A DNA stretch of 64,000 bases, taken from contig CM033118.1 of assembly GCA_019321725.1 (NCBI GenBank), forward strand, positions 14,410,071 to 14,474,070, in the 5' to 3' direction. A program made the translations under genes and the position numbers. The DNA is from Paulownia fortunei. Taxonomy: Eukaryota > Streptophyta > Magnoliopsida > Lamiales > Paulowniaceae. The notes below the pieces were generated by a model. The model saw only the letters and a program-made list of their open reading frames with translations. It did no database searches and was not told the origin of the DNA. Positions 5,599-42,819 of this stretch are shown here, one piece after another (within the stretch, counting starts at the first letter, position 1; each line of letters starts with the position of its first letter).

Positions 5599-7042
5599 CA
5601 GTTTTTTGTAGTTTGAGCATAGTTTCATGATCAAAAGCCCTATGGTCCTCAAACTTGTTTCAACTTTTCTGTTGGAAGTTTAGCCCAATTCAATCTTGAT
5701 TATAGCACAAAATTCGTCCAAGTGGTTGCACAAAATAAATCACCAAAATTCATATCAGAGTTCAGCCCTGTATTAACTTATTTGACCAATTTATCTCTTA
5801 AGCCCAAATTTATTTTGGGTTAAATTTTGGATATGTTATACACAAGATATAAGCAAGTTTTCTGAAGAAAAAATGGTGAGAAAATGTGTCAAAATGGTAA
5901 AAACATAGGCTGCAGTTGCTGCTGCTGTTAAAGGATGGCTCTTGGACATGATTCGGTAATTTGACCATATCTTCTTCATCCGACTGCCAAATTTGACAAA
6001 TGATATATGATAATATATTAGCACTGAAAGATCTATAATTTTTATTCTTTACACATCATCAAAGTATGGTTGTATCTGACCAAAAAATACAATTCAATTT
6101 GGTAGGTGAGAACTTGGTGCAACAACTTACCAACTCTTGGCAATTAGCATAGCACTTGATTAACTCCTCCATTATTTGTTTGGCCTCTAACTTACTCCAA
6201 GTACTATAAATAGGCCACGTATTAAGCTTGTAAGAGAGGGGGTAGAGGGTTTCTTTAGGCTAACTTTTCTAGTATGTACGTTGTCTAGTAATGTAAGTTT
6301 TCTTGTGGTAATATAAATGCATTCTCTAGTTTCTCTTCTATTTTTACTCTTTCCTACTTTTATTATGTCTTTCTAAATTTTATTTTTCTGAGAAAAAAGG
6401 GTGAACCTCTTGATGGAGGAGAAGGAATGTTTATAAAGGTAGAAAATATTTAAGTATGTTGTATTATTATTTTGAGTTTTTGATCTAAACCCTGCTTGTT
6501 TTATGGTGATTCTTGATTTATGTATTTCCAATGGCACAACAACCACTTGGGTTTATTTAGCTTATTGTATAGTTTTACCCCACTGACTGCTAATGTGAAA
6601 TATTGATTTATTGTAGACAAAGGTGTGCATAAATGCTTGATCCCATAAATAAGTGTTGGCATTAAGAGATAATTTGCAATAGTAAGACAATATCATGGTT
6701 ACCTAATTGCATGAGTTATTTGATAATATCTTCCCATTGGAACCTTCATTATGTATGGATTCCAATAGTGGCAATTAATAGAGGTAAAAAGAATAAATAA
6801 CCATTTCTCTATCTAAAACTCAAAAGTGGTTCCCTAATTCTCAGTACTTTTAATACTTTGGTTTTTCTTTAGTTACAGCATACATTAAATTTTTCATATA
6901 TTTTGAATCACATAAACTCCATCTCTTTAGACATACAAACTTGAATTCTTCAAAAAACTTTTCTGTGGATCAACCTCGGAGTTATGAGAAATTTTTTACT
7001 TAATACAACTTGCACTTAGGTTTGCAACCTTATAGTTGTAGT
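5599..7042 (+). repeat. LTR C1 copy, 5'-truncated, plus orientation
   Basis: It matches LTR C1 of Ath1 (16351-17960) from about 135 bp inside the LTR to the end (TTGCAACCTTATAGTTGTAG). The first part, with the TGATAAG terminus, is missing. No PBS or internal region follows, so it is a truncated solo LTR. Divergence from the Ath1 LTRs is visible throughout. Confidence 0.8.
6205..6212 (+). promoter_or_regulatory. TATA box of LTR C1
   Basis: TATAAATA in the context ACTATAAATAGGCC is conserved at the same place in every C-type LTR of the window (also 17122, and on the minus strand 9576, 21352 and 42054). It marks the likely U3/R transcription start region. Confidence 0.65.
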
Positions 7043-8762: not shown

Positions 8763-10356
8763 TGCTACAACTTTAAGGTTGCAAATCCAAGTGCAGGTTG
8801 TAGTAAGTAATAAATTTCTCGTGAGTCCAAGGTCGATCCACAGGGAAGTTGTTTGAAGAATTCAAGTTTATATTTCTAAAAAGATGAAGTTTATGTGAAT
8901 CAAAATATATGAACAATTAATGTATGATGTAACTAAAGAAAAACTGAAGTAATAAAAGTACTGAGGATTAGGGATCCACTCTTGAATTTTGGATAGAGAA
9001 ATGGTTATTTATTCTTTTTACCTCTATTAATTGCCACAATTGGAATCCATACATAATGAAGGTTCCAATGGGAAGATATTATCAAGTAACTCATGCAATA
9101 AGGTAATCATGATATTGTCTTACTATTGCAAATTATCTCTTAACGCCAACACTTATTTATGGGATCAAGTATTTATGTACACCTTCGTCAACAACAAATC
9201 AATATTTCACATTAGCAGTCGGTGGGGTAAAACCGTACAATAAGCTAAATGAACCCAAGTATTTGTTGTGCCATTGGAGATATATAAATCAAGAATTACC
9301 ACAAAACAAGTAGGGTTTAGATAAAAAATAAAAATAATAATACAACATACTTAAATAATTTCTACCTTATAACCATTTCTCTTCCTCCATCAAGAGATTC
9401 ACCCCTTTTCCTCAGCAAAATAAAGTTTAGAAAGACATAATAAAAGTAACAAAGACTAAAAATATAAGAGAAACTAGAGAATGCATTTCTATTACTACTA
9501 GAAAACATACAAACTAGATAACTTAGCCTAAAGAAACCCTCTACCCCCCTCCTCTTACAAGCTTAATACATGGCCTATTTATATTACTTGGAGTAAGTTA
9601 GAGGCCAAACAAATAATGGAGGGGTTAATCAAGTGGTATGCTAGTTGCCAAGAGTTGGTAAGTTGTTACATAAATTTCTCATCCACTGAATTGAATTACA
9701 TTTTTTGGTCAGATACAGCCAGATTTTGAAGATACATGCAGAATACAAATTGTAGATATTTCAGCACTGATATATTTTCATATATCTTTTGTCAACTTTG
9801 GTAGTCGGATGAAGGAGATATGGTCAAATTACCGAGTCATGTCCAAGAGCCGCCCTATAACATCAGCAGGAACTTTCAGCCTATGGTTTTACCATTTCAA
9901 CACATTTTCACACCATCTTGTATTCAGCAAACTTGTTTATTTACCTCTTGGATATAACATATCCGAATTTCAGTCCAAAATAAATTTGGGCTCAAGATAT
10001 ATAACCGAATTGGTAAAATAAGTCAATACTGGGCTGAACTCTTATCCGAATTTTGGTGATCCATTTTTTGCAACTACTTGAATGAATTTTCTGCTATCAT
10101 CAAGACTGAATTGGGCTGAGCCTCCAACATAAACGTTGTACCTCTATCTCTTGGCTTTCAAATAAAATAAGCTTCAGGTCCATAGAGCTTTTGATCATGA
10201 AGTTATGCTCAAATTACAAAAACTGTACAAGTTTGGAAACATGCTTCCATTTATTCCCTAACACAAAACATTAATAAAACAATAATATTAACAAGAATAA
10301 AGCAAAAAAAGTATAAAGGATTTGATACAAAAATATGTCAAAATATTCACTTATCA
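8763..10356 (-). repeat. 3' LTR of Ath1 (subfamily C1)
   Basis: The reverse complement begins TGATAAGTGAATATT and ends GTTGTAGCA, bounded by a polypurine tract on the inner side and TATCA outside. Its length, 1594 bp, is close to the 1610 bp of the partner LTR at 16351-17960. Both share the C1-specific stretch with AGAGGAGGGGGGTAGAGGG, which C2 LTRs lack. A TATA box lies at 9576-9583. Confidence 0.9.
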
Positions 10357-12099: not shown

Positions 12100-12753
12100 T
12101 CACAGACTGAGAGTTAAATTCAATTTGCATTTTCGACCATTGTTCCTATTGGACCAATTCATATTGGCCAAGGCTGGATCAGGTTTTGGCACATATGCTA
12201 GAAGTTGATCAATCAGCTGGTTAGGTGTTGGAGCAGAAATGATGATTCTTCTCGCAGAAGTTGAAATAAACCCTTTTTTCGCAGCATGATCTACAAAAGA
12301 TAGCAAACCATCATAAAAACCATTAATATTAAGAATACCTATAGGTTTTTGGTGAATGTTGAGTTGTGCCCAAAAGACAATTTGGAATAATTCCTCTAGT
12401 GTACCAAAACTGCCAGGTAGAATGATGAATGCATCCGCATTGTTTAACATGTTAGGCATTCTGTCCTGAATATGTGACACTTTTAGCTCATCTCCAATGG
12501 TCATACCTGTGATATTCTATACTGTTAAAGATTTTGGGATAACTCCCAGAACTTTGACACCTCCTACATAAGCAGAAATAGCAACACTCCCCATTAACCC
12601 CAAACTGCCTCCCCCATACACTAAATGATTTTTTCTTTATGCTAAAGTTCTACCAAGGTTATTGGCTGCCCCTATAAACTCACCATTTTTTCCTAGATTG
12701 GATCCACAAAAAACATAAATGGAATTAAATTTGCGAGTTGAAGAAACTTCCAT
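12100..12753 (-). pseudogene. LOG-like pseudogene carried by Ath1
   Basis: The frame from the ATG at 12753 to the stop at 12100 aligns from end to end with plant LOG proteins, the cytokinin riboside 5'-monophosphate phosphoribohydrolases that release active cytokinin. Seen: N-terminal VFCGSN, then [19 protein letters not shown], an arginine in the helix before the active site (DRMPNM), and PGSFGTLEE near residue 112, where the family has PGGxGTxxE. The glycine-to-serine change lies in that motif. Length is about 217 codons, as in the family, with no frameshift and no introns although plant LOG genes have several. Two in-frame stops (TAA near codon 39, TAG near codon 80) break it; the open part starts at 12504. 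It lies between an unknown frame and the element's 3' tail, and Ath2 has the same gene at the same place. I infer capture of a spliced copy by the element lineage. LOG-type lysine decarboxylase-like proteins of other function cannot be excluded. Confidence 0.85.
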
Positions 12754-12990
12754 TTTTTTTTCTTTTTTATGAAAATAAGTTATGCAAAAATAGAGTGAGT
12801 ACGGTGATATTTATTGAGGTATGAACAGGGAATATATTTATTGCATGTCTTTTTCTTTTGTCAAAAAGGTTGAAAATAAGGACACATATGAAATTTAAAA
12901 ATTACCTACTAACACGTGTATGTGCATGTAGTTATGATTGTGGCTCACATCTTCCTCTGGTTTTACGTCCAGTAACGGCTTAAACGCCCT
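12754..12990 (-). promoter_or_regulatory. Spacer upstream of LOG-like gene with a TATA-like sequence
   Basis: On the minus strand CAATAAATATCACC lies about 60 bp before the LOG-like ATG. In Ath2 the same spot reads CAATAAATAGCATC, closer to a plant TATA box, about 70 bp before its ATG. A thymine/adenine-rich leader follows in both. This may be a promoter for the captured gene, but an AT-rich region makes chance matches likely. Confidence 0.3.
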
Positions 12991-13584
12991 CTATGGGTCA
13001 AGGATATGCTTCCCATCCAGTTTTCTTATAAACTGGCAAACAGAGTCTTTTAATGTTAGATTCCCAAGACTATAAAGCTCATTTTCATTTCGAAAATGAT
13101 CCCATAAATCAAGAATTACACGTTGTACCAATCCACATGAATGCATCTCAAGAGTCAATATAATGTGATCTAAAGACTCCTTACTCAGTCCATCCATAAT
13201 GAATTTAAGTTTATCTTCTCGATTTTTAGAGACCATTCCTAAAGAATGACACTTTGTGTTGCAAGTCCATCTAGCACAAATATAACAAACTTTCATTTTT
13301 TTTTCCCTTCGTTTTTTTAAGTATGTGCTTTTATCAAAACCAGACATGTATCTAGTAAGCAAATCTGGAAACTCATGTGAAAACTCACCTGCCCTTACCT
13401 TTGCTTCAATTATCCATCGTATGTCCTCCGGGATGCCCTTGTGCATAAGCATCCTCAATCTTTCAATCCTGATTTTATAAATTTTCAAAATTGCATTTTT
13501 AGGAAGAAAAGGAAATCTCTTTTTGAGAGTTAGAAAAATGTCACCCATTTTGAAAAGAACAAGAAAAGAGAATGAGAAAAGCAA
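12991..13584 (-). CDS. Unknown 197-codon frame of Ath1 between integrase and LOG-like gene
   Basis: I do not recognise the product. The frame is open from an ATG at 13584; a second ATG at 13548 (MGDIFLTLKKR) is the better start because Ath2 keeps an equivalent (near 35480) while the first 12 residues are only hydrophobic filler. The protein is basic in its first half and has a cysteine cluster CYICARWTCNTKC (spacing C-x2-C-x4-C-x3-C). Ath2 keeps the same four cysteines and the tryptophan in a decayed copy (CPKCAQWICNKKC, minus strand near 35165-35205). This suggests a metal-binding site under selection in the parent element. Its place after integrase is where Athila elements often carry an env-like or extra frame. 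No signal peptide or membrane anchor typical of env is clear. It may be a second captured host sequence. Confidence 0.6.
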   Translation of the reverse strand: MLFSFSFLVLFKMGDIFLTLKKRFPFLPKNAILKIYKIRIERLRMLMHKGIPEDIRWIIEAKVRAGEFSHEFPDLLTRYMSGFDKSTYLKKRREKKMKVCYICARWTCNTKCHSLGMVSKNREDKLKFIMDGLSKESLDHIILTLEMHSCGLVQRVILDLWDHFRNENELYSLGNLTLKDSVCQFIRKLDGKHILDP

Positions 13585-13736
13585 AGAAAATTTCTACAAA
13601 GATTTTAGTTGTTTGGGAAACTGACAAGTCCGACTTTTATAGCCACGGAGTACCGTTATCCGCCATTTAATCGGGAAAAGAAAAAAAATAAAAGAAGAAA
13701 AAAAAATAATGTCAGAGAAAATGAGTATATACAACA

Positions 13737-14566
13737 CTAATCATAACAAGGGTTAGAAAGAAAAAGTATTTCCTCTTGTGAAAATTGATTTTCTAGAAAT
13801 GGTTTAACTTTTTGTCCATTTACTTTGAATATGTTACCATTTCTAGGATTCTCAATGTCAATCGCCCCATAAGGATATACTTTTTTTACAACAAAAGGAC
13901 CACTCCACTTTGATCTCAATTTTCCAGGAAATAAATGCAATCGAGAATTATAAAGCAAAACCTTTTGACCAACCTCAAATATTTTTCTTGAAATTTTATT
14001 ATCATGAAAATCTTTGATTCTTGCTTTATAAATTTTAGAATTCTCATATGCATCATTTTCAGTTCTTGAAGTTCATTGATTTGCAATTTGCGCAATTTTG
14101 AAGCTTCATCAAGGTTGAAGTTAAACATTTTGATTGCCCAATAAGCTTTATGTTCAAGTTCAACAGGTAAATAACAAGGTTTTCCATAAACTATCCTATA
14201 AGGAGACATGCCTAATGATGTTTTGAAAGCAGTTCTATATGCCCAAAGTGTATCGGTAAGTCTAAGAGACCAATCTTTACGGTTTGGGTTAACTGTTTTC
14301 TCCAAAATTTGTTTTTTCTCCCTATTTGCAAGTTCAACTTGTCCATTTGTCTGAGGGTGATAAGGGGTTGCAACTTTATGTATGATTCCATATTTCTTCA
14401 TTAAAGTTCCGAAAACTTTGTTACAAAAATGTTTTCCCCCATCACTGATAATAGATCTAGGAATTCCAAATCGACTTAAAATATTTTCTTTCAAAAAATT
14501 TATCACTATTTTGTGATCATTGTTTCAACAAGGAATTGCCTCAATCTATTTTGAAACATAATCTAT
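13737..14566 (-). pseudogene. Integrase core and C-terminal part, Ath1
   Basis: The product would insert element cDNA into the genome. The main open part (14506-13916) holds SDGGKHFCN with the second catalytic aspartate and [10 protein letters not shown] with the catalytic glutamate. The first aspartate (GIDFMGPF) lies upstream in the preceding frame. A following open part (13958-13737) has [10 protein letters not shown], the GPY/F-type C-terminal module; no chromodomain is present. In-frame stops near 14524 and 14545 and a frameshift near 13950 break the gene. One stop replaces a tryptophan codon (TGG to TAG). Confidence 0.85.
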
Positions 14567-15290
14567 GGCAACCAATATGTAAAGAAAACCAAATGATAAT
14601 GGAAATGGCCCCATAAAATCAATACCCCAACAGTCAAAGATTTCAATCACTAGGATATGGTGTAGGGGCATTATATTTCTCTTTGAAAGGGACCCTAACT
14701 TTTGACAATTTACACAACTTTTGTAGAAAGTGTAAGTATCTTTGAAAAGAGTTGGCCAATAAAATCCACATTGCAAGATTTTTGCAGTAGTTTTCTTTAC
14801 AGAAAAATGACCACCACATGCTTCTGAATGATAAAATTTGACAATATTACCTATCTCATTGTCAGGCACACATCTTCGAAAGATTTGATCCGGAAAATAT
14901 TTGAATAGGTATGGATCATCCCAATAAAAAATTTTAACCTCAGTCAAAAACTTCTTTTTGTCTTGAGAATTCCAATGCGATGGCATCTTTCCAGTTGTTA
15001 CCATGAAGTGACATTTCTCCCAATTGAGCACAAGATTCTTTTCTTCACACCTGATCAAAACCTTTTCTAAATTAGATAAACAATCATCAAATGAATTGCC
15101 AAAAATAGAAAAATCATCCATGAAGACTTCAAAAAAACATTCAACCATGTCACTAAAAATACTAAGCATGCATCGTTGGAATGTAGCTAGTGCATTACAT
15201 AATCCAAAAGGCATCCTTCGATATGTAAAAGTACCAAAAGGACATGTAAAAGTTGTTTTCTCTTGATCTTCAAGTGCAATTGCAATTTGA
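14546..15290 (-). pseudogene. Reverse transcriptase (second part) fused to integrase zinc domain, Ath1
   Basis: Reading leftwards from the inversion junction, the frame starts inside RT just after the first catalytic aspartate block, passes FTYRRMPFGLCNA and FMDDF (the catalytic YVDD-type box) and NWEKCHFMV. It then jumps near 15000 straight to the segment before integrase, with the HHCC zinc site (H and H in FYHSEACGGHF, CVNCQKLG) and GIDFMGPF. The RT connection and all of RNase H, present in Ath2 at 37080-37727, are missing. The join keeps the reading frame. The upstream part of RT is at 20767-21079 on the plus strand. Confidence 0.85.
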
Positions 15291-15291
15291 T
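15290..15291. other. Left breakpoint of the inversion
   Basis: Left of this point is minus-strand RT of Ath1; right of it is plus-oriented C2 LTR beginning in its middle. Comparison with Ath2 (37981-38060) shows that about 11 bp of RT (TACCCAAAATA) are missing between this edge and the edge at 21079. Confidence 0.85.
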
Positions 15292-16024
15292 TAATTTTTG
15301 ATTGAAACCCTCTTTGTTTTGTGGTGATTCTTAATTTATGTATCTCCAAAGACACAACAAGTACTTGGGTTCATTTAGCTTATTGTATGGTTCTACCCAC
15401 CAACTGCTAATATGAAATTTTGATTTGTTGTAGACAAATATGTGCATAATACTTAATCTCATAAATAAATATTGGCGTTAAAACCCTTCTTGTTTAGCGG
15501 CAATTCTTGATTTATGTCCAATAGCACAGTAAATACTTAGGTTCATTTATCTTATTGTATAGTTTTATCCCACCGACTGCTAATGTGAAACCATGATTTG
15601 TTGTATATAAAGGTGTGCATAAATATTTGATCACATAAACAAGTATTGGTGTTAAGAGATAATTTGTAAATAGTAAGACAATGTCATAACCTTGATGCAT
15701 GAGCTATTTGATAATATTTTCCCATTGGAACCTTCATTATGTAAGGATTCCAATAGTAGCATTTAAAATAAGTAAAAAGAATAAATAATCATTCATCTAT
15801 CCAAAACTAAAAAACGGAACTCTAATCCTCAATACTTTTATTGCTTTGATTTCTTAGCTATAACATAATATTTTTTTTATATTCTAAACCATATAAAGCC
15901 CTTATTTTAAGAAATATAATCCTGAAAACTTCAAACAACTTTCCTATGGATCGACCTCGGACTCCTGATAACTTTATTACTTGACATAACCTGCACTTGA
16001 GTTTGCAAACTTAAAGTTGTAACA
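15291..16024 (+). repeat. C2 LTR end piece (part of the Ath2 3' LTR, inverted)
   Basis: It matches the last ~730 bp of C2 LTRs, up to the terminus AGTTGTAACA at 16024. It contains two tandem copies of a unit of about 180 bp (15300-15480 and 15485-15665). Turned round, it joins 21080-21842 and 31977-32241 to give about 1762 bp, against 1768 bp for the Ath2 5' LTR. A CTAGG after the end pairs with CCTTG at 42820 (4 of 5 bases) as target duplication once orientation is corrected. Confidence 0.85.
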
Positions 16025-16350
16025 CTAGGCAGCATTTTCCAATAAATGAAAACATATGAAGGATAAGATAAGACTCAAATGAAAAAACTCTACTTCAAAA
16101 TGTCACATCTACTTGAGACTTCGTACTTGCAAAATATCTAGCCTCCTAGCTTTCAATTTAGACTTATCTCCAACTCCTAAAATTACTTTCCATTCATGTC
16201 TTGCAAGCTTTCTAGCCTCCTATGTTTTCATTAGCTTTGTCTCTGACCATTTCTTTCTTTAACTCATCTGTATGTTGCTCCTCCAGTCTACAGAACTAAA
16301 GCCTTTATTCTTTTTCCATTTTCCTAGAAAGTCCGTTCTAAAATATGATA
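16025..16350. other. Spacer between Ath2 and Ath1 LTR ends
   Basis: These 326 bp lie between two LTR termini and match no repeat recognised here, so they are the DNA that separated Ath1 and Ath2 before the inversion. They include a short imperfect repeat of CTAGCCTCCTA text (16139-16150 and 16213-16224). No gene is seen. The last five bases, TGATA, are the Ath1 target duplication. Confidence 0.6.
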
Positions 16351-17960
16351 TGATAAGTGAATATTTTGATATTTTTGTATCAAATCCTTTATACTTTTCT
16401 TGCTTTATTCTTGTTAATATTATTGTTTTATTAATGTTTTGTGTTAGAGAATAAATGAAAGCATGTTTCCAGACTTGTGCAGTTTTTGTAATTTAAGGAT
16501 AACTTCATGATCAAAAGCTCTATGGACCTGAAGCTTATTTCATTTGAAAGCCAAGAGATAGAGGTACAACTTTTATTTTGGAGGCTCAGCCTAATTCAAT
16601 CTTGATGATAGCATAAACTTCATCCAAGTAGTTGCACAAAATGGATCACCAAAATTCAGATCAGAGTTCAGCCCAGTATTGACTTATTTTACCAATTCGG
16701 TTATATATCTTGAGCCCAAATTTATTTTGGACTGAAATTTGGATATATTATACCCAAGAGATAAATAAACAAGTTTTCTGAAGACAAGATGGTGTGAAAA
16801 TGTGTGGAAATGGTAAAACCATAGGCTGCAAGTTGCTGCTGATGTTACAGGGTGACTGTTGGACATGACTCGATAATTTGACCATATCTCCTTCATCCGA
16901 CCGCCAAATTTGACAAAAGATATATAAAAATATATTAGCGCTGAAAGATCTACAATATTTATTCTTCATATATCTTCAAAATCTAGTTGTATCTGACCGA
17001 AAAATGTAATTCAATTCAGTAGATGAGAAATTTGTGTAACAACTTACCAACTCTTGGCAACTAGCATACCACTTGATTAACCCCTCTATTATTTGTTTGG
17101 CCTCTAGCTTACTCCAAGTACTATAAATAGGCCATGTATTAAGCTTGTAAGAGGAGGGGGGTAGAGGGTTTATTTTGGCTAAGTTATCTAGTTTGTATGT
17201 TTTCTAGTATTGTAAGTTTTCTAGTAGTAATAGAAATGCATTCTCTAGTTTCTCTTATATTTTTAGTCTTTGTTACTTTTATTATGTCTTTCTAAACTTT
17301 ATTTTGCTGAGGAAAAAGGGTGAATCTCTTGATGGAGGAAGAAAAATGGTAATAAGGGTAGAAATTGTTTAAGTATGTTGTATTATTATTTTTATTTTTG
17401 ATCTAAACCCTACTTGTTTTGTGGTGATTCTTGATTTATGTATCTCCAATGGCACAACAAATACTTTGGTTCATTTAGCTTATTGTACGGTTTTAGCCCA
17501 CCGACTGCTAATTTGAATCTTTGATTTGTTGTTGACGAAGGTGTACATAAATACTTGATCCCATAAATAAGTGTTGGCGTTAAGAGATAATTTGCAATAG
17601 TAAGACAATATCATGATTACCTTATTGCATGAGTTACTTGATAATATCTTTCCATTGGAACCTTCATTATGTATGGATTCCAATTGTGGTAATTAATAGA
17701 AGTAAAAATAATAAATAACCATTTCTCTATCCAAAACTCAAGAGTGGATCCCTAATCCTCAGTACTTTTATTACTTCGGTTTTTCTTTAGTTACATCATA
17801 CATTAATTGTTCATATATTTTGATTCACATAAACTCTATCTTTTTAGAAATATAAACTTGAATTCTTCAAACAACTTCCCTGTGGATCGACCTCGGACTC
17901 ACGAGAAATTTATTACTTACTACAACCTGCACTTAGGTTTGCAACCTTAAAGTTGTAGCA
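16351..17960 (+). repeat. 5' LTR of Ath1 (subfamily C1)
   Basis: It runs from TGATAAGTGA to AGTTGTAGCA (1610 bp) and is followed by the primer site. It matches the 3' LTR at 8763-10356 in inverse orientation over its whole length. Together they form a 1.6-kb inverted repeat about 6 kb apart. TATA box at 17122-17129. Confidence 0.9.
17122..17129 (+). promoter_or_regulatory. TATA box of the Ath1 5' LTR
   Basis: TATAAATA in the context GTACTATAAATAGGCC, at the same relative site as in other C-type LTRs. It would drive the genomic transcript of the element. Confidence 0.65.
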
Positions 17961-17966
17961 AGTTTT

Positions 17967-17984
17967 TGGCGCCGTTGTTGGGGA
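17967..17984 (+). promoter_or_regulatory. Primer-binding site of Ath1, tRNA-Asp type
   Basis: TGGCGCCGTTGTTGGGGA, six bases after the LTR end, complements the 3' end of plant tRNA-Asp(GUC) except for two positions (GTTGTTGG where GTTGCCGG is expected). This primer is typical of Athila-type elements. Both differences are C-to-T changes. Confidence 0.85.
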
Positions 17985-18160
17985 AGGCAAGGTAAGTATT
18001 TAGGTTTGTTAATATTTTTCCTTTGTAAATATAATTTGTTTATTTTCTTTATGGATATATGGTTATATTGTATTGTAGTCATAATTCTCGACGTTTAGTA
18101 AGAAATAATTCCAAAACTTTGTTTGGAATTTTGTTTGAATCATCTCCACACACTTCCACT

Positions 18161-19634
18161 ATGGCTAAAAATGAAAGTATCCAGGATGAAAATGAGAATC
18201 AACAGGTGCGTACCATGCGTTATTACTTGCAACCTCCTCGAAATTCTTCTCCTTCTTGTTTCATTTTTCCTCTAAATGCAAATAATTTTCGATTCAATCC
18301 AGGTATGATCCCTTTACTTCCTAATTTCCATGGTTTAGACTCTGAAAGTCCTTACTTGTATTTAAAAGAATTTGATAAAGTATGTGCCACTTTTGATTAT
18401 CAAACTTGCACAAATGAGATTGTTAAGCTCAAATTATTTCCTTTCTCTTTAAAAGATAAAGCAAAAAATTGGCTTAATTCTTTAAAACCCAGGTCAATTG
18501 GCACTTGGCAAGAAATGCAAGCTGAATTCTTGAAAAAATTCTTTCCAACTCATAAAACTAATGCTTTGAAAAGACAAATTCAAAATTTTTCTCAAAATTC
18601 GAATGAGGTTTTCTTTCAATGTTGGGAAAGATTTAAAGATTTGTTGAATTCATGCCCACATCATGGTTTTGAAAAATGGCGCTTAATTAGTTTTCTTTTA
18701 TGAAGGTTTAACTCCTGAAACAAAATAATTTGTTGAAGCAATGTGTAATGGTGAGTTTCTTGATAAAGAACCTGATGAAGCCCTAGAATACCTAGATCAT
18801 TTGGTAGAAAACTCTCAATCATGGCATAGTGTTAATTCTTCTAAAGGTTCTATTAGATCTAATCTTGCTAATAGTAATAAAGGAAAATATTACCTTAGCC
18901 AAGAAGATGATCTAAATGCTAGACTTGCTAGTTTAACAAGAAAAGTTGAAGCCATGGAACTTAAAAAAGTAAAGGAAATCAAATCTGTTCAAGAGGAAGA
19001 AGTTTGTAGCAATTGTGAACTTTTGGGACACTCCACCAATAAATGTCCAAACCTTCCAGTACAAGCAAATTTTATGAACACATTCAAAAAGCCTTTCCAT
19101 TCTCCATATTCTGAAACTTACAATCCACAATGGAGAAATCATCCCAATTTCAGTTGGCGAGATGATAACCGTGCCCAACCACCACATTCACAAAAACCAC
19201 AAAACTTTCATTCTTATCCACCTCCACATACAAAATCCATTGAGGAGACTCTGCAAGCATTTAAGCATGAACAAACAAACATCAATAATCAGACTTCACA
19301 AGCTATCAATGAGATCAGAAGCACACTTTCAACACTGACAACTTCTTTGTGTACTCATGAAAAAGGTAAATTTCCTGCTCAACCTCAACCTAATCCTTCT
19401 ACTCAGTGCCATGTTTCTTCTTCAGGTGAAAATGCAGTCAAGGAGGCTAATTTAGTTACAACTCTTCAGAATGAAAAAATTGTTGACAAGACTATTCATA
19501 CCAAGGAGAAAGTTTCTAATCCACCTCCAGAAATGAAAAATGGAAATAGTCTTAACGATGAAGGTAAGTTTGAAGAAGGTAAGCATGAAAATGATGAAAA
19601 AAAAAATATATTTACCTCCAGCACCCTTTCCTAA
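18161..19634 (+). pseudogene. gag of Ath1 (broken)
   Basis: Gag forms the virus-like particle. I place the start at the ATG at 18161 (MAKNESIQDENEN) because Ath2 (40857) and Ath3 (62679) have the same start; the frame is open further upstream only by chance. The first part (to 18703) is the capsid-like domain with FPFSLKDKAKNWL. A one-base insertion near 18697 shifts the frame and a stop follows near 18727. The second part (18741-19634) carries a CCHC zinc knuckle CSNCELLGHSTNKC (near 19001-19045) that binds the RNA. A second frame change near 19600 leads into the protease segment. Confidence 0.85.
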
Positions 19635-20766
19635 AAGATTGCAAGCAACTCAGAAATTGAACTCAAATGCTGAAATTTTTGAAATTTTTAAACAAGTCAA
19701 GATTAATATTCCATTATTGGATGCAATCAAGCAAGTTCCACCTTATGCCAAATTTTTGAAAGATTTGTGTACAATCAAAAGAAAACATCATGTACAAAAG
19801 AAGGCATTTTTAACTGAAAGTGTTAGTTCAATTATTCAATAATTCACTCCACCCAAGTACAAAGATCCAGGTTGTCCAACCATTTCATGTATCATAGGAA
19901 ACACTAGAATAGAGCGTGCTTTGCTTGATCTTGGTGCTAGTGTAAATCTTCTACCTTTCTCAGTTTATGAACAGTTAGGTTTGGGAGAACTTAAAACAAC
20001 TTCTGTTGTACTCCAACTAGCTGACCGTTCGATTAAAGTTCCAAAGGGAATAGTAGAAGATGTGTTGGTACAAATTGATAAGTTTTACTTTCCAGTTGAT
20101 TTCATTATTTTGGACACAGAGCCTGTTGCACAAATACATACACAAATTCCTATCATTTTGGGTCGTCCTTTTCTTGCAACTTCAAATGCTTTGATCAATT
20201 GTAGAAATGGTATTTTGAAGTTATTATTTGGAAATATGACTTTGGAACTAAATGTGTTTAATATTTGTATGCAACCTGCAGAAGATGTCGAAGTACATGA
20301 AGTGGATTCAATTGAGGAACTTGTTCATGAATACTTTACTACTACTAACTCTTCAGATTCTTTGGAGACTTGTTTTGAAAGTGAAAGTATTTATAAAAAG
20401 GAACACACTAATACTATCTCTGAATTTTTGCAGGTACAAGAAAAATATTTTTGGAAGCCAAGGTTCGAAGAACTTTCATCATCAACAGTAAAATCTATTC
20501 CATCAAGTATTAAAGCTCCCGTGGTTGAATTGAAACCTTTGCCAGTTAATTTGAAATACTCTTTCTTGGGTGAGAATGAAACTTTTCCAGTAATAATTTC
20601 TTCCAAACTTGATGCATCTCAAGAAGGTAAGTTGATTGAAACTTTGAAAATGAATAAGAATGCTTTAGGATGGACTATTGCTGATATTAAAGGTATTAAT
20701 CCTTTCATTTGCACACATAACATCTATATAGAGAAAAATGCTAAACCATCTAGAGAAATGCAATGA
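19600..20766 (+). pseudogene. Aspartic protease and linker of Ath1 (broken)
   Basis: The protease would cut the polyprotein. The active-site motif is LLDLGASVNLLP near 19921-19960, in the Athila form in which the residue after D varies. PIILGRPFLAT near 20148-20178 is the second conserved motif of retropepsins. The segment before the active site is open from about 19600 to a stop at 19840, where Ath2 has a CAA codon. The linker to RT contains a repeated SIEELVHEYFTTTNSSD-like stretch shared with Ath2 and Ath3. It ends at a TGA (20764) at the position where related elements have an arginine codon. Confidence 0.8.
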
Positions 20767-21079
20767 AGGCTAAATCCTAATATGAAAGAAGTAGAAAGAA
20801 ATGAAGTCATTAAACTCTTAGATAATGGAATCATTTATTCTATTTCTGATAGCAAATGGGTAAGTCCTACTTAAGTTGTACCTAAGAAATCTGGAGTTAC
20901 TGTAGTCAAGAATGAGAATGATGAATTAATTCCAACTAGGACTGTTACTGGTTGACGAATGTGCATTGACTATAGAAAACTCAACTCAGTTACTAGAAAA
21001 GATCATTTTCCATTACCTTTCATGGATCAAATTTTTAGAAAGAGTTGCAGGACACGAATTTTATTGCTTTTTAGATGGA
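20767..21079 (+). pseudogene. Reverse transcriptase, first part, Ath1 (cut by the inversion)
   Basis: The translated frame shows the RT entry motifs: SDSKWVSPT, VVPKKSG, RMCIDYRKLN and the block ending FLDG, which holds the first catalytic aspartate. Stops at TAA (20872) and TGA (20955) and an extra T near 21032 break it. The DNA then leaves RT at 21079. The very next RT residues appear on the minus strand from 15290 leftwards. Confidence 0.85.
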
Positions 21080-21080
21080 T
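21079..21080. other. Right breakpoint of the inversion
   Basis: RT of Ath1 (plus) meets a C2 LTR (minus) in its middle. Turned round, 15291 onward would continue into 21080 onward with about 6 bp missing compared with the LTR at 63738-63770. Confidence 0.85.
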
Positions 21081-21842
21081 AATACAACACACCTAAACAT
21101 TATGCACCTTTATAACCATTCCTCTTCCTCCATCAAGAGGTTCACCCTTTCTCCTCGGCTAAATGAAATTTAGAAAGACATAATGAAAGTAGAAAAGACC
21201 AAAAACAGAAGAAAAACTAGAGAATACATTTCTATTACTACTAAAACACTTACATTACTACTAGAAAAATTAGTGTAAAGAAAGACAACAACAAAACTTT
21301 CTTTCCCCCTCTAAGGGTTTTTTTGTGTCTTGAATGACATCCAAAAGCCTCTATTTATAGTAGAAGAGTGCCTAAATTAGTATCTCAAAATTCACTCAAA
21401 ATTAACTTCGATTGTGCTCTAAATTCACATGCCCTTTTCAGATCCAAATTTTGTCACATATTTTTCTCTATGAAATCAGCTATATTTGGGAAAATGATCA
21501 ACATAAAAGTTGTATATTTATCTATTGGCTTCATTTTTAAATTTGAATCACCAAATTCCAACCACTAGGGATAAGGTTATCCTTGATTTAAGAAAATATA
21601 TCAGCTTAGATAGATCCTTTCCAATCCATATACTTGGATGAATTTTCTACTATAATTAAAACTGAATTGAGCTGAACTTCCAACAAGAATGTTGTAGTTA
21701 TATCTCTTAGTTTTCAAATAAAGTAACACTTAGGTCTATAGGATTTTTGGTCATAAAGTTATGCCAAAAACACAAAAACTACACAAGTTTAGAAATATGT
21801 TTATTTTGAATTTAATGTAAGCTCAATAATCACTTGTAAAAT
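21080..21842 (-). repeat. Middle piece of the Ath2 3' LTR (C2)
   Basis: Reverse complement of the central part of C2 LTRs, with TATA box at 21352-21359. Element A interrupts it at 21843 and it resumes at 31977. The bases next to element A are AAAAT here and AAAGT at 31977-31981, a target duplication with one mismatch; the uninterrupted LTR (42534-42539) reads CAAAGT. Confidence 0.9.
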
Positions 21843-24468
21843 TGTAATACTCGAGCCTCGCGCTACTCACCTGACCAATATAGTTTATGCATTTCATGCT
21901 ACGTATGTGTCATTTGTATTTTTAATTGATATTTCATAATGCATTATATTTTATATGATATTTTTAATAATTAAACTTTTGAAGTTGTTGCCGATATTAG
22001 TTTCCAAATTTTTTAACCTAATTGGTTGAGTTGGTACTAAGATACGAGAATTTAGATGTCAACTATCAGATACCATTATGATACACGTAAGTGAAAGATG
22101 GCATCGTTGTGTTTATCGAGAAAATAGTGATAGTAATGATAATAATAATAATAATAAAACAAAATAAGGACATTATCATATTAATTAAGAGGGTATAAAT
22201 TCTTACTAGAAAATAAATTTGGGGGTTTATAAATAAATATCAAAATATTATGTATTAATTATATATATATATATATAAATATAATATATTTATATAGATG
22301 TATGAAATATATATATATATATATGTATAGATGTATGAAATATATATAGATATAAGTATATGTGTGTAGTATAATAAAATAATATCATAATATATATATG
22401 TGTGTGTACACGTGTATAGCTTATGTTTAGATAAGCATGTATATATATGTATATATATATATATGTATACACGTGTATAGTATATAGTAATAGTTATATT
22501 ATATTACACATATGTTATGATATATTATATTATATTAAGGATAAGTATACATATATTATAATATTATATTAGATTTCTTAATAGTTAAGTAATACTTAAG
22601 ATATTAAAACAAGATATTATACATATGTTATAATATATTATACTAGGTTATAATATATTATATTATATTAAGGATAAGTATACATATATTACAATATTAT
22701 ATTAGGTTTACTTAATAGGTAAGTAATAGTAAGATATTAAAAACACCATATACACATATTCACGGCTACAGAAAAGGAAAGGAAAAGAGAAGAAAAGAAA
22801 GAAAAAAAACAAAGGGGGCGGAAGAAGAAATAGCGCGAACAAACTTCTACCGTAGAAATTTGAGAAAATTTTAGGTAAGTCCCTTCTTATTTTTGTACGG
22901 ATAAAAATATATATTTATGCCGTTTATTTCTAATTTGAAAGAAAGTTTTGATTCAAATTAACTAGTTATCTTCTTGTAAGACAATAATTAATATGCACTT
23001 TTAATTCGAAATTAGTTACAAAAATTTGATTTGATTATCTTGTATTAATTGGATGAAAAATCTAATTTAATTGAGGAATTTGTTACGGGGATTATAACAC
23101 ATCAATTAGATAATATTAAAATAAATTCGAGATGAGAAATTAAGGTATTTAAAAGGTTCTAATCGGTGTGAGTATAAATTTTAAGACTTGATTGTTATTT
23201 AATTAAATTTAAGATTTAAGACCCCTTATGAGATTTGATATAGAAACCCATTGATTAAGAATGAAAATTAATACGTTATACTTTTACAGGCAACCTTATA
23301 TCTAAGGGTAGGAAAGAGAATCTTGCTAACCTTCAATAGGATATCAAAGGTGGAAGGTAAGTGAAAATCCATTTGCAACTACAATGCATGTGCATAGTAT
23401 TTCTTGACTTATTTATATTAAATGTGATCATTGTGTCTTGATGAGTATCATAAATATCTTATAGTGCATGCGTTGTTTGGATGACAGGACATGTGATTCA
23501 CTGTGTCATTGAACATGCCATTCATCAACATTTACAAGTGCATGCAAATACGTGCTCACAATTGAGGTTTTGCATGCATAACATTATTTTTAGAAAGAAA
23601 ATGTTTTAGTTGGCCACTACTAATGTACCGAGGCCCATGTGTGGCTTATTTATATGATATTTGGGGCGCCGCGAGTATTACTTTTTGGAGGATCATAGAG
23701 GTTGACAAGGGGTGTGCCTCTGGTGGTCACGAGAGGGTGGACCACTTGACTGTGCCCTTATTGACGCCGCCGGTGGGAATACTTCTAGAGGGTCACAGGG
23801 GAAGACAGGGGGTGGACCTTTGGTGATCCCAGGAGATGGCCCCCGGACTGTGTCAATCTGTTTATGGCCATGTGATTATTGATATTGTCGAGAGCTCTAT
23901 CCGGTACATAGTAGGTGGGCCAAGGCCCAGTGATGGAAAATGATTTTTAAATAAAATGATTTTGATGCATAAGTTCGCATTCTTGTCATAATCTCGTAGA
24001 AATATATTGCATTTATGTCGGATTATCCCTTCAGCATGCATGATTTTCATTTACTGAGCATTAGCTCACGTAGTTCATGCATTGTAGGTGAGTTTGATGA
24101 TACTTGAAGCCATGGACTTACTGAGCGAGCGGCTGGAGTTCCTACAGGTTCTGAGGATCAGTGTACATGGATGACGACCTGTTGGGCTGGTTGTTAACTT
24201 ATTTGATTTTGGAGTTTATTGTATTAGGTTTTAGGATTTGTAGTGTGTGTTACTTTTAAAACCTTTCTGTACATGGGTATGTAAATATTATGGTTGTTAT
24301 GGGTCCTCTGCAGGTATATATATATTAGTTTGTGAGTGAGAAAAATAGTTTATTATTTATTATGCTGTTACAGGAACAAAAAAAATTTGTATATGCACAC
24401 AGGATTTATTATGTCAAAATTATTATATCTATAAATATATATGTGTGTGTAGTATTAGGGGTGTTACA
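21843..24468 (+). repeat. 5' LTR of element A (LTR A)
   Basis: It runs from TGTAATACTCGAGCCTC to GGGGTGTTACA, 2626 bp. It contains an (AT)n-rich tract (22258-22480), diverged repeats with TTATAATATATTATA text (22540-22740), a purine-rich run (22770-22830) and a GC-rich block (23620-23860). The GC-rich block is itself partly duplicated: GAGGATCATAGAGGTTGACA and GAGGGTCACAGGGGAAGACA begin two related halves. The 67-codon open frame at 23623-23826 is part of this block, with no evidence that it is used. Confidence 0.9.
22258..22500. repeat. AT-rich microsatellite-like tract in LTR A
   Basis: Runs of (AT)n mixed with GTATA/TGTGTG and two repeats of ATGTATGAAATATATATA text. The corresponding part of the 3' LTR copy (25375-25482) is shorter and ends where element B is inserted. 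Confidence 0.8.
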
Positions 24469-24471
24469 GAG

Positions 24472-24484
24472 TGGTATCAGAGCG
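24472..24484 (+). promoter_or_regulatory. Primer-binding site of element A, tRNA-iMet type
   Basis: TGGTATCAGAGCG, three bases after the LTR end, matches the complement of the 3' end of initiator tRNA-Met for 12 bases. Confidence 0.9.
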
Positions 24485-24943: not shown

Positions 24944-24958
24944 ATAAGGAGGGGAGAA
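24944..24958 (+). promoter_or_regulatory. Polypurine tract of element A
   Basis: AAGGAGGGGAGAA directly before the 3' LTR start TGTAATACCC. Confidence 0.85.
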
Positions 24959-25371: not shown

Positions 25372-25402
<31 letters not shown>

Positions 25403-25482
25403 TAGATGTATGAAATATATATAGATATAAGTATATGTGTGTAGTATAATAAAATAATATCATAATATATATATGTGTGTAT
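24959..25482 (+). repeat. 3' LTR of element A, left part
   Basis: It matches 21843-22404 of the 5' LTR with only few differences, mainly in the AT tract. It is interrupted at 25483 by the start of LTR B. Confidence 0.9.
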
Positions 25483-28358: not shown

Positions 28359-28361
28359 GAG

Positions 28362-32258: not shown

Positions 32259-33950
32259 CCATTGCTCGTCCTCGAGCAAGCTTAATATCTAAACTAATCC
32301 ACTTTAGTAGGACATGACGATTGCATCTAGCATATGCAACAAACCTTAAACCCCTAGGTGGCCTATAGAGGACGAGTTATAGTCTTGTGAGGGTTTCTAG
32401 TTGTGATACCCACAAACACCTATGATAACTAACTTCCAACCATTATTCTCAGAAAGCAACAAAATAATATGGAAATAAAATCAAACAGGTGTTGAATCTA
32501 ACCCTTAGTTATTCAAAAGTCACTACATTTCCATAATAAGAATACTCAAGTGTGTGTGTGAATAGTTAATGTTAACAGTGTCAAAACCATACATGCTTCA
32601 AAAAAGTGAATTTCCATAAAACCTTACAAAAACCATCACCCAATTTTTAATGGAAGAGTTAAACATCATAGGATCTTCCTTTGGTACAAATCTCCATTAC
32701 ACCGAAGGCACCACAAGAAATTAAAAGGTCTTCAATAAAGGTTATAATAGGCCAAAGGGTAGTGATGTGGCTAAGAAATAAAAGATAGGATACAACAAAG
32801 GTTCTAAAAACTTCATCGGATTAGAGACATAGAGTTAATCAATGAAAAATTCTCATACTCCACGAATTTCAATACTAGGAGTTATTGTTATTGAATTGGG
32901 CCCTTCTTCATAATTCTTATTAATTTAGCAACATCCCATTTTTAGTTGCAACTCGTAATATTTTTAACACTTTGTAATTTTTTTTAGAAGAGAAACTCCC
33001 CCACACTTTGCTTTTATTCCAACTCAAATTTCTTTTGCAAACTCACCTTATTAATGGAATGTCTCTTAAACTCCAAATTATTTTTAGAAAAATGGTAGGA
33101 TAATAGTGTATTTAGGCTAGGTAAGAAGACATGCTTACAGAAAAAAAAGATTGTTTATTGAAATGCTCAAAGTAGCTCACTATGGGGATGTTATCTTGGA
33201 ACATCACATGGGGAACAAGTTCATTTGGCCATGGTGCTAGAAAGCCTAATGCCTTAATCATTTTTTAAGTGGTGCTCAATTAGTCCTTCACCTCGACAGA
33301 CTAAAAGAAAAAGTTCTAACACTCAACCCCTACATGTCGAAAATCCAAGCGATGATTAAAGTTAGGGTATAAGAATTACCTATTTTGACATGCTTGTCTC
33401 CACACCGAATACCATAACTATTTATGCAAAAAGATTTGAATATAATTATTCCAATAATATATTAACCAAAGAACAACATCATAATCCAAAACAACACCTA
33501 TCCTCAATCAAATCACATTATTCGTGCTTAATTTTAATCATTGAAGTTGAAAGATCATATACGACTAAAAAAAAATTGACGATTCACAAACTTTCATTAA
33601 AAACTTTACAAACTTGCCACGTTTTGTAAACAAATAGGGGTGCGTCAAGATTGTTACAGTTATCCTTTATTCTACCACTTTTTTTTATGGTTTTAATAGA
33701 CCTAAAACAAAACACGCTTGATTTTTTTAAAAAACTAGAAAAACATACATTGAACACACAAAACAAGATATCAACTATCCCCTCCCCCAACCTAATCAAG
33801 ATATTGTCCCTAATGTCAAAAATAGATAAGAAAGTAGAGTTTAGAAGATATTACCTGAAATGTGACTTATTCAAAAATAAATCCGAAACAACACAATATA
33901 TATACAGTATTAGTTAAAACTATTAAGGATAAAGTTCATAGGTTGAGAGC
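32259..33950 (-). other. Noncoding 3' tail of Ath2
   Basis: It is homologous to 10376-12099 of Ath1 over its length. The internal polypurine-like tract is at 32990-33010 and the GGTTGGGGGAGGGG-type tract near 33778-33795. Open frames on both strands are short and not shared with Ath1. Confidence 0.7.
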
Positions 33951-33954
33951 TAAA

Positions 33955-34577
33955 TTTATTTTACATTTTCGCCCATTGTCCTTGTTGGACCAATCCACAC
34001 GATCCAATGTTGGATTAGGTTTTGGCACATATGCTAGAATTTGATCAATCAGTTGGTTAGGTATTGGAGCAGAAATGAGAATTCATCTCGCTGACGGTGA
34101 AATAAAACCTTTTTCTACAGCATCATCTACAAAAGATAGCAAACCATCAAGAAACCATTAATATTAAGAATACTTACAAGTTTTCTGATGAATTTTGAGT
34201 TGTGCCTAAGACACAACTTGGAATAATTCCTCCAGTGTGCCAAAACTACTAGGTAGAGTGATGAATACATCCGTATTATTTAACATGTTAGGCATTCTAT
34301 CCTAAATATGTGACACTTTTAGCCCATCTCCAATGGTCATACCTGTGATATTTTGTACTATTAAAAGTTTTGGGATAACCCTTGAAACTTTGACTGCGCT
34401 TACATGAGCAGAAGTAGCAACACTCCCCATTAACCCCAGACAACCTCCCCATACACTAAATAAATTTTTCTTTCTACCAAGGTTATTAGCTGCCCCTATA
34501 AACTCACCATTTTTTCCTGGATTGGTTCCACAAAAGACACAGATACAGTTGAACTTACCACTGGAAGACCCTTCCAT
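33955..34577 (-). pseudogene. LOG-like pseudogene carried by Ath2
   Basis: It is homologous to the Ath1 LOG-like gene from its ATG at 34577 (followed by VFCGTNPGKNGEF) to the end. It is more damaged: about 12 bp are lost near codon 35, a one-base loss shifts the glycine-rich loop, a TAG stop replaces the CAG codon kept in Ath1 (near 34303), and more stops and frameshifts follow after the PSSFGTLEE stretch. In two places it keeps what Ath1 lost: where Ath1 has the TAG stop near codon 80, Ath2 has CAA. The parent gene therefore had neither of these stops and was probably open. Confidence 0.8.
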
Positions 34578-34804: not shown

Positions 34805-35495
34805 AGTAACGGCTTAAACGCCCTATATGGGTCAAGGATATGCTTCCCATCTAATTTTCTTATAAACTAGCAAACATGTCTTTTAATGTCAGATTCCTAA
34901 AACTATAATACTCATATTCATCCCGAAAGTTATTTTATAAATCAAGAATTGCACGTTGTACTAATCTACATGAATACATCTCAAGAGTCAATATAATGTC
35001 ATGTAAAGACTCCTTACTCAGTCCATCCATAATAAATTGAATAAGACTTCTAACTCAGTCCATCCATAATGAATTGAGTAAGACTCCTTACTCAGTCCAT
35101 CCATAATGAATTGAATTTTATCTTATCAATTTTTAGAAACCATTCCTAAGGAACGACACTTTTTGTTGCAAATCCATTGAGCACATTTAGGACAAACTTG
35201 CATTTTTTTCGCACTTCATTTTTTGGCCTTCATTTTTTTGAATATATGCTTTTACCAAAACTAGGCATGTATCTAGTAAGCAAGTTTGAAAACTCATGCG
35301 AAAACTCATGTGAAAACTCACCTGCTACTCTTATGTTTACTTCAATTATCCATGGTATGTCCCCTAGGATGCCCTTATGCATAAGCATCCTTAATCGTTC
35401 AATCCTGATTTTATAAATTTTTAAAATCGCATTTTTAGGAATAAAAGGAAATCACTTTTTAAGAATTAGAAGAATGTCATCCATTTTGAAAAGAA
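34805..35495 (-). pseudogene. Decayed copy of the unknown four-cysteine frame, Ath2
   Basis: The DNA matches the Ath1 frame at 12991-13584 throughout, starting with MDDI (minus strand near 35482). The four cysteines and the tryptophan of the cluster are kept. A tandem triplication of a 37-bp unit (35008-35118), frameshifts and stops break the frame. The function is unknown. Confidence 0.7.
35008..35118. repeat. 37-bp unit in three tandem copies
   Basis: Units start at 35008, 35045 and 35082 and share CTCAGTCCATCCATAAT. Ath1 has a single copy at the corresponding place near 13174-13206, so the triplication arose in Ath2. Confidence 0.9.
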
Positions 35496-35704
35496 CAATA
35501 AAAGAGAATGAGAAAAAGAAAGAAACTTTATACAGAGATTTTAGTTGTTTGGAAAATGATAAATCCGACTTCAATAGCCATGGAGTATGGTTATCCGCCA
35601 CTTAACCAGGAAAATAAAAGGAAAAAAATGAAAGAAAGAAGCCTACAAAACAAACAAAGTTAGTGAAAATATGTATATATATATACTAATCATAACTAAG
35701 GTTA

Positions 35705-41051: not shown

Positions 41052-42819
41052 TGCTATAACTTTAAGGTTGCAAACCCAAGTGCATGTTGTGTCAAGTAAT
41101 AATAAATTTCTCAGGAGTCCGAGATCGATCTACAGGGAAGTTATTTGAAATTTTCTGGATTATATTTCTTAAAAGAAGAGCTTTATGTGATTTATAATAT
41201 AAAGACAAATTTGTGCTCTAACTAAGAAATAAAAGTAATAAAAGTATTAAGTATTAGAATAGAGGAATGATTATTTATTCATTTTACCTCTTTTAAATAC
41301 CACTATTGAAATCCAAATATAATGAAAGTTCCAATGGAAAGATCATATCAAATAGTCATGCATTAATGTAATCATGATATTGTCTTACTGTTTGTAAATT
41401 ATTTCTTAAAATCAATATTTTTTTATGGGATCAAGTATTTATACACACCTTTGTCAACAATAAATAAAGGTTTCACATTAGCAGTCGGTGGGGTAGAACC
41501 GTACATAAAGCTAAATGAACCAAAGTACTTGTTGTGACATTGAGATACATAGATCAAGAATCACTACTAAACAAGAAGTGTTTTAATGCCAATACTTATT
41601 TATGGGATTAAGTATTTATGCACATCTTTGTTTACAATAATTTTAAGGTTTCACATTAGCAGTTGGTGGGGTACAACCATATAATAAGCTAAATGAACTC
41701 AAGTATTTGTTGTGCCATTGGAGATATATAAATAAAGAATCACTACAAAATAAAGAGGGTTTCAATTAAAAATTAAAATAATAATCCAACACACCTGAAT
41801 ATTATGCACCTTTATAACCATTCATCTTCCTCCATCAAGAGGTTCATCCTTTCTCCTCAGCTAAATGAAATTCAAAAAAACATAACAAAAGTAGAAAAGA
41901 TTAAAAATAGAAGAAACAATAGAGAATACATTTCTATTACTACTAGAAAACTTGTATTATTACTAAAAAACATAGCCTAAAGAAAGATAACAATACAAAT
42001 TTCTTTCCTCATCTAAGGGTTTTTTTATGTCTTGAATATCATTCAAGAGCCCCTATTTATAGTAGAAGAGTGTCTAAATTAGCATTTCCAAATTCACTCC
42101 AAATTAACTTCAAATGTGATCTAAATTCATATATTTTTTTCAAATTTGAATTTCGTCATACATATTTCTCCCTACAATCAGATGAATTTGGGAAAGTTAT
42201 TAACATGAAAGTTGTGGATTTGTCTGTTAAATTCATTTTCTAACTTGAATCACCTAATTCCAACCACTGGGGAGAAAGTTATGCTTGATTTAAGAAAATA
42301 TTTAAGCATAGATAGATCATTTCCAATGCACACACTTGAACGACTTTTATGCTATAATTAAGGTTGAATTGGGCTGAGCTTCCAACATTGAAGTTTATCT
42401 CTTGATTTCAAATGAAGCAAAACGAAGTTCCATATAGATTTTCAGCATGGAGTTATGCCTAAAATACAAAAACTACGCAAGTTTGGAAACATGCTTATTT
42501 TGAATTTAATGCAAGCCCAATAATCACTTGCAAAGTCCAAGTGATTTCTTGCATATAAGTTGATCTACACATGATGGATTTAGGAAAAAATGGCCCTTTT
42601 CTTCTAATTTTGATGCTTATTTGATCTACTGAAATATTATCTCCCAACTTGCTCACGAAACATGTTGTGTTCTTTGATTTTATTTTGGCTATTTTTTATT
42701 TCTTTTTGTTCATTGATTTCCTAACACAAAACATTAATAAAACTATAATATTAAAAATAATAAAGCAAATAAAGTTTAAAGCATTTGATACAAAAATATA
42801 TCAAAATAAACACTTATCA
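41052..42819 (-). repeat. 5' LTR of Ath2 (subfamily C2)
   Basis: Reverse complement runs from TGATAAGTGTTTATT to GTTATAGCA, 1768 bp. It has two tandem copies of the ~180-bp unit (about 41400-41580 and 41581-41760) and a TATA box (42054-42061). Outside it is CCTTG, which pairs with CCTAG (reverse complement of 16025-16029) as an imperfect target duplication. Confidence 0.9.

Follow-up and report, generated by a model that had tools for sequence, protein, structure and literature searches.

Within a 64,000-nucleotide stretch of a Paulownia fortunei contig (CM033118.1; the window hereafter) a LOG-like frame is found inside a retrotransposon, which raises the question of whether a mobile element has taken up a gene for cytokinin activation, multiplied with it and drawn some benefit from it.

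Two retroelements and their LOG-like frames

The window holds two elements, E1 and E2 (Table 1), with the features of Ty3/gypsy LTR retrotransposons, i.e. the order gag-PR-RT-RH-IN, LTRs of the form TG...CA, a 5-bp target duplication and a tract ahead of the 3' LTR, RH being detected in E2 and absent from E1. The 3' LTR of E1 begins at 10356, after GTGTGGGGGAATT. The two E1 LTRs are 95.2% identical over 1592 sites (K2P 0.050), which at the substitution rates used for LTR dating (1.3e-8 and 7e-9 per site and year) would make E1 roughly 1.9-3.6 million years old. E2 is older, since its 5' LTR and the pieces of its 3' LTR share just 81-86% identity.

Table 1. Positions of the main features of E1 and E2 in the window
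Feature	Position	Strand	Remarks
E1 3' LTR	8763..10356	minus	TG...CA, then 5-bp flank TGATA (element sense)
E1 LOG-like accessory gene	12103..12753	minus	217 codons; terminal TGA 12100-12102
E1 A-rich purine leader	12754..12768	minus	abuts LOG start codon
E1 ORFx	12994..13593	minus	open, 200 codons, Cys-rich (CYICARWTCNTKC); between integrase and LOG
E1 integrase pieces	13740..14524	minus	two overlapping frames; rve match in the second, E 2.5e-6
E1 reverse transcriptase part joined to integrase zinc-binding domain	14549..15370	minus	
E1 5' LTR	16351..17960	plus	inverted relative to 3' half; 5-bp flank TGATA (element sense)
E1 gag frames	18035-18700, 18729-19631	plus	inverted 5' half
E1 aspartic protease frame	19843-20763	plus	inverted 5' half
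E2 3' LTR, in pieces	31987-32241, 21079-21840, inverted 15291-16024		from window self-comparison
E2 LOG-like pseudogene	33939..34577	minus	same place in element as E1 copy
E2 A-rich purine leader	34578-34609	minus	longer than in E1; abuts LOG start codon
E2 ORFx counterpart	34828..35499	minus	broken
E2 5' LTR	41052..42819	minus	ends approximate

E1 is not an intact element. In a self-comparison of the window about 780 bp of E2 (36938-37717) are absent from E1 at 14990/14994, a stretch within which the RNase H match of E2 falls (piece 37365-37733), and the 5' half of E1 (16351-21081) is inverted relative to its 3' half, the breakpoints lying close to 15293 and 21081. The inverted segment of about 5.8 kb (15293-21081) splits E1 and carries the end of the E2 3' LTR (15291-16024). 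Because this end matches the part missing from E2, the simplest reading would be a single inversion of that size after E2 had landed beside E1.

Other retroelement remains are also present in the window. A younger Ty3/gypsy-type element (22700-31976, plus strand) lies within the E2 3' LTR, with LTRs (22700-24468 and 30220-31976) that are 97.6% identical and a gag-protease frame of 602 aa (28410-30215). A third related gag-pol fragment (58770-62970, minus strand) is about 84-86% like E1 and E2 in long matches, and tblastn found no LOG in it. Further LTR-like copies related to the E1 and E2 LTRs occur at 5661-7041 and 51969-53896 (plus strand), and a GAG-pre-integrase fragment at 48605-48964 (plus strand; E 3e-5, under the curated cut-off) is probably of Copia type.

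Athila uses a tRNA-Asp primer, and the primer site after the E1 5' LTR resembles the motif of the tRNA-Asp complement in 16 of 18 bases. Strictly, an Athila element is one that falls in the Athila clade of an RT/RH/INT phylogeny and is without the additional RNase H that marks Tat; the label Athila-like, as applied here, is founded on structure and on the tRNA-Asp-like primer motif. The window elements share with Athila the non-chromovirus-like gypsy order, extra frames and the 5-bp target duplication, and unlike Athila they carry LOG (PMC6317226). In the accessible text of that source tRNA-Asp is among the primers given for non-chromoviruses and 16% of Athila elements have an ORF-1 domain (PMC6317226), to which the pieces of E1 and E2 scanned gave no match.

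The LOG-like frame of E1 belongs to the LOG/TIGR00730 family, scoring 157.7 bits against TIGR00730 (curated cut-off 96.35), matching PF03641 of Pfam at E 4.3e-35 (121.2 against a cut-off of 27) and aligning with Arabidopsis LOG3 (2a33) over residues 6-203 at E 1.6e-58, values that exclude a chance resemblance. Given the identity of element to host LOGs (46% and 51% in the two pairs compared) there is little doubt that the element copies would have the LOG fold. The NCBIfam CtkRMPhLog equivalog model (cut-off 300 bits) gives 105.1 bits for E1, and 132.4 and 133.8 bits for the control host LOGs P0121 and P0137. Since genuine host LOGs also miss its cut-off this model cannot decide for plants, and the low score was dropped as an argument against a cytokinin LOG.

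The first-pass annotation described an intronless frame of family-typical length that aligns end to end with LOG proteins and lies between the integrase and the 3' polypurine tract. The alignment, the lack of any intron-sized insertion and the position all hold, but the frame is not open, and its in-frame stops at codons 39 and 79 mean that the E1 copy is dead. That a second element has the gene at the same place is confirmed by the single other full LOG copy that tblastn found across the window (34577 to 33939), but this E2 copy has several stops and indels, some of which are not multiples of three. Both copies lie 3' of the integrase in the sense of the element and ahead of the 3' LTR, and the similarity between E1 and E2 runs unbroken through both borders of the frame. 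Both are broken, and neither makes a LOG enzyme. The A-rich purine run that precedes the LOG start in E1 and E2 may act as a leader for translation or as an additional primer site for the plus strand. The idea that these are ordinary host LOG genes which happen to lie near or inside retrotransposons has proximity in its favour and nothing more; the shared place in E1 and E2, the lack of introns, the many copies and the element-specific clade described below refute it for the window copies, and we attach next to no probability to it.

Other carriers and the origin of the element LOG

P. fortunei has four annotated, intact LOG relatives of 217 aa, each 93-94% identical to the E1 frame and each on a separate contig, these contigs measuring 27.1 Mb, 24.7 Mb, 41 kb and 25 kb. 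Among the best 120 of 2192 matches the closest twelve (P0001-P0012) are all of 217 aa and 90-94% identical to E1, and all except P0010 (11 of 12) read LPGGFGTLEE, of which PGSFGTLEE in E1 is a decayed form. A length of 205-230 aa is found in 115 of these 120, which include 44 proteins from Reevesia pubescens (Malvales), 20 from Orobanche and 4 from Paulownia (like Primulina, both Lamiales), 6 from Rehmannia, 4 from Populus and 3 from Xanthoceras (Sapindales). One Orobanche hederae cluster among the matches listed comprises 244 sequences, and the other large clusters there, of 205 and 81 sequences, may pool many samples. The Reevesia, Orobanche and Rehmannia LOGs are putatively assigned to the element by their copy number and by the tree rather than by a seen context.

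Such a context was sought in longer proteins that hold an element LOG, using a query padded with X, which gave 39 proteins. A retroelement Pfam domain stands beside LOG in 19 of them (Citrus sinensis 11, C. x changshan-huyou 3, Primulina eburnea 4, P. tabacum 1), including P0276, which has further domains, presumably of Copia type, and may be a chance neighbour. The other 20 comprise 6 Citrus models, of which two have Carla_C4 and the others a kinase, BED-type or MULE-type domain alongside, then 2 Acer models, which join LOG to a gag resembling the window gag, and 12 host, algal, fungal, protist or other proteins. Citrus, Primulina and Acer each have gene models that combine LOG with gag or pol domains. 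The integrase piece of the window matches 18 of the 39 proteins, and LOG follows the integrase in all ten models, chosen from the 19, that were scanned with Pfam. Scans of viral_contigs with Paulownia and Populus-like LOG proteins gave no match, and a scan with alignment A1 gave 28 loci at 25-55% identity.

The second accessory frame, ORFx, has counterparts in 15 of the 39 proteins, 14 from Citrus and one from Primulina, with identities of 38-67% that in some cases span short stretches. Five of the ten Pfam-scanned models have it between integrase and LOG (P0264 of Primulina; P0245, P0253, P0259 and P0267 of Citrus), the other five give no ORFx match, and in P0263 and P0274 the match falls at the N-terminal end of the protein. 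Carla_C4 matches five of six Pfam-scanned ORFx members with E-values of up to 1 (best 1.3e-4), of which P0264 passes the curated cut-off of 20.9 (21.1) and P0253 and P0267 just miss it; the window ORFx itself gave only a non-significant Viral_NABP match in Pfam (0.075). The weak likeness of ORFx to carlavirus nucleic-acid-binding proteins may serve as a lead.

The first-pass annotation knew of no described case of an element of this sort, which proved mistaken. Steinbauerova and colleagues reportedly noted two Athila-like elements with similarity to LOGL4. A 2022 survey (PMC9289625) gives a YgdH/LOG domain for Citrus sinensis and C. clementina, in their Gypsy consensus sequences, and, without its filter, for Populus trichocarpa Gypsy also, and regards this as agreeing with Steinbauerova et al. 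2011 (Genetica 139:1543). In its accessible text the survey names only Citrus and Populus for this domain, and among open-licence papers it is the only one found on YgdH/LOG in retrotransposons; the accessible text of a review of additional ORFs (PMC7264820) has no word beginning with LOG, and open-licence literature gave nothing relevant on Paulownia with Athila, on Orobanche LOG with a transposable element or on carlaviruses with retrotransposons. LOG-carrying Gypsy elements are therefore already known, and the window elements belong to that kind, as they too have a LOG-family domain beyond gag-pol (PMC9289625), LOG follows the integrase in the Citrus models as well, and the Citrus and Populus copies share a clade with those of the window. 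The two differ in that the Paulownia relatives mostly keep the catalytic Glu which the Citrus models lack. What is added here are the Rehmannia, Orobanche and Reevesia copies, the fusions of Citrus, Primulina and Acer, the single clade, the change of the pocket, the loss of the Citrus Glu and ORFx.

In a tree of 70 hand-chosen rows, in which the element rows include proteins known by similarity and copy number alone, 42 element LOGs, both window copies included, lie on one side of a branch (99/94), or with Xanthoceras and Acer added to that side (99/97), and 20 host LOGs group together (99/99). The host LOGs of this tree are LOG1/3/4-like, LOG8 and three odd ones, the LOG5 and LOG7 groups being absent. 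The split between element and host also appears in a quick tree of 59 rows (90 and 98). In the 70-row tree the window copies form a group with Paulownia and one other row (100/96), which is joined next by Rehmannia, Orobanche and a further row (100/99), and separate groups are formed by Citrus (100/100), by Populus with two rows (100/100) and by Reevesia with one row (100/99). Primulina falls with five other sequences (99/96), apart from the other Lamiales, so that descent is not simply vertical, and horizontal transfer of the element LOG between plants may have taken place.

These results bear out the core of the first-pass annotation, that an Athila-like element carries LOG and has multiplied with it: the E1/E2 similarity is unbroken, intact copies exist on four contigs of the same species, and the two window copies, rather than tracing to separate host genes, sit with Paulownia inside the element clade. 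Two of the outcomes that it had named as refuting, a lack of further carriers and an origin of the two copies from separate host genes, were thus not observed, and no insertion footprint was noticed around LOG. The tree of LOG copies and host LOGs that it had called for succeeded in placing the window copies but not in finding the donor gene; 23 of the 67 inner branches of the 70-row tree are open and branches near the root are long, for which reason no donor is assigned, and a nearer one may exist because the LOG5 and LOG7 host groups are outside the tree. One old capture fits best, since a single element clade stands apart from the sampled host LOGs. The simplest reading would be a single capture that predates the divergence of rosids and asterids, and a local capture by this lineage, as first proposed, is less likely than an old one common to rosid and asterid elements. 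Several independent captures by related elements in different orders would agree with the missing LOG5 and LOG7 groups, the lack of a donor and the position of Primulina; we consider them improbable in view of the single element clade and of the IN-ORFx-LOG order that the window shares with one Primulina and four Citrus models. On the reading of one old capture, LOG has probably stayed with a single element lineage over a very long period.

The active site and selection

Residue numbering (CgLOG) and roles were taken from PMC4979012, which ties K100 and E125 to prenyl binding and reports that alanine substitutions at most residues of the active site all but abolish activity. The residues were scored in the 117 non-Xanthoceras proteins among the best 120 of 2192 matches. 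In these listed matches R99 is kept in 109 of 117 and E122 in 114, with R99, E122 and GG.GT kept jointly in 97, and W129 is kept in 96. K100 is replaced by M, I or L in 113 and is K in one, and at 125 the Glu is found in none, Q (77) and H (35) together making up 112. E1 keeps R99 and E122 but reads PGSFGT, and E2 reads PSSFGT, where PGGxGTxxE is expected; the prenyl-binding residues M96, H97, K100, E125 and W129 are I, Q, M, Q and W in E1, which thus lacks the full prenyl-binding set. K100 is present in all 120 host matches scored, and 110 of the 112 with a residue at position 125 have the Glu; these matches are a biased yardstick because they were ranked by likeness to LOG3. Like Arabidopsis LOG3 and LOG8, the element copies have the fold family, the length, R99 and E122 and, in most intact copies, PGGxGTxxE; unlike plant LONELY GUY, they are present in many copies, changed at pocket positions 100 and 125 and, in the window, intronless.

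Among the matches listed, positions 100 and 125 are replaced almost throughout outside Sapindaceae. This and the tie of both residues to prenyl binding (PMC4979012) suggest that LOG may work otherwise in the element, either cleaving another nucleotide or, probably in Citrus, binding one uncleaved, for example to alter host nucleotide signals or silencing. In the Citrus models the loop mostly reads G-D-L-A-T, and E122 has given way to A in 18 of the 20 scored and to T in the other 2. None of these Citrus element LOGs from among P0241-P0278 has the catalytic Glu, which makes them a candidate for a lineage-wide pseudoenzyme, and this enzyme reaction can hardly be the reason for their retention. 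The proposal of another function is possible, though we would not put it first, as a host-like pocket is kept in Xanthoceras (3 of 3, best stretches) and in Acer P0246, Acer P0266 has K at 125, and open-licence literature gave no link between LOG and TIR-derived nucleotides. In the accessible text of PMC11593424, moreover, no clear residue difference is found between plant LOGs of differing activity, and the changed pocket is on that account a warning and no proof. Cytokinin release by the element LOG is plausible. The bolder wording of the first-pass annotation, that the element spreads a hormone-activation gene, is undermined by the changed pocket in nearly all of the 117 proteins and by the Citrus loss.

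Between E1 and E2 the identity of LOG is 85.4% (over 638 aligned bases of DNA), that of the noncoding DNA downstream 84.6%, of the ORFx-LOG spacer 82.1% and of the integrase 90.4%, and the LOG differences are distributed over the codon positions as 31/23/39, an unevenness that is not significant (p 0.09). As LOG is about as diverged as noncoding DNA and its codon positions are not significantly uneven, this pair shows no clear constraint on LOG. The case for constraint would be built on intact proteins of several orders that conserve the active site, in databases that favour intact frames. LOG might instead be a passenger, captured by chance and useless to the element, its intact frames being recent copies from a few masters, as the two broken window copies and the Citrus loss of Glu would allow. 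This is rather unlikely, as full-length frames persist in Lamiales, Malvales and Malpighiales, an argument that is not decisive because the match list is biased to intact predicted proteins, and as R99 and E122 are kept so widely among the matches listed, two cross-order pairs being 49% and 61% identical.

A proposed role and its implications

We favour, as fairly probable, an Athila-like sub-lineage that carries a LOG gene in sense, captured once and copied since, for which local cytokinin release would be the likeliest benefit. Its elements would have the order gag-PR-RT-RH-IN-ORFx-LOG-3' LTR, with LOG in sense at the end of the internal region, the gene stemming from a spliced host LOG transcript taken up once, before the rosid-asterid split, and copied with the element since. 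An intact copy, if transcribed, would yield LOG protein from element RNA, putatively via splicing or internal initiation, and this protein is predicted to hydrolyse a nucleoside 5'-monophosphate at the bond between base and ribose. Local release of cytokinin or a related base may then favour dividing, meristem-like cells, and new element copies arising in such cells could reach the germ line. A more tentative variant, which we consider possible but doubtful, is that ORFx, as a Cys-rich frame of carlavirus type, and LOG formed a two-gene cassette before rosids and asterids split; R99 and E122 would have been retained across most orders and the prenyl pocket remodelled, giving a nucleotide-cleaving enzyme of changed specificity that manages the host cell and that became a pseudoenzyme in Citrus.

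A parallel is the Phalaenopsis Gypsy with an AlkB-type RNA demethylase, where a host-type enzyme has likewise been kept over many copies (PMC9289625). That case differs in the enzyme, in being given for Phalaenopsis only in the accessible text of the survey, and in that activity was shown in vitro (PMC9289625).

For genome annotation these elements carry a warning, as proteins named LOG or cytokinin-activating in Populus, Rehmannia and Orobanche, among the matches listed, group with retrotransposon copies, so that counts of the LOG gene family could be distorted. The proposed single capture of old date deserves to be followed, as do the remodelled pocket, the loss in Citrus and ORFx. Extra genes that are long kept in retrotransposon lineages are rare and hint at how elements manage their hosts, and if a mobile element has indeed retained a hormone-activation enzyme across several orders of plants, it would be a direct and testable case of a transposon acting on the development of its host.
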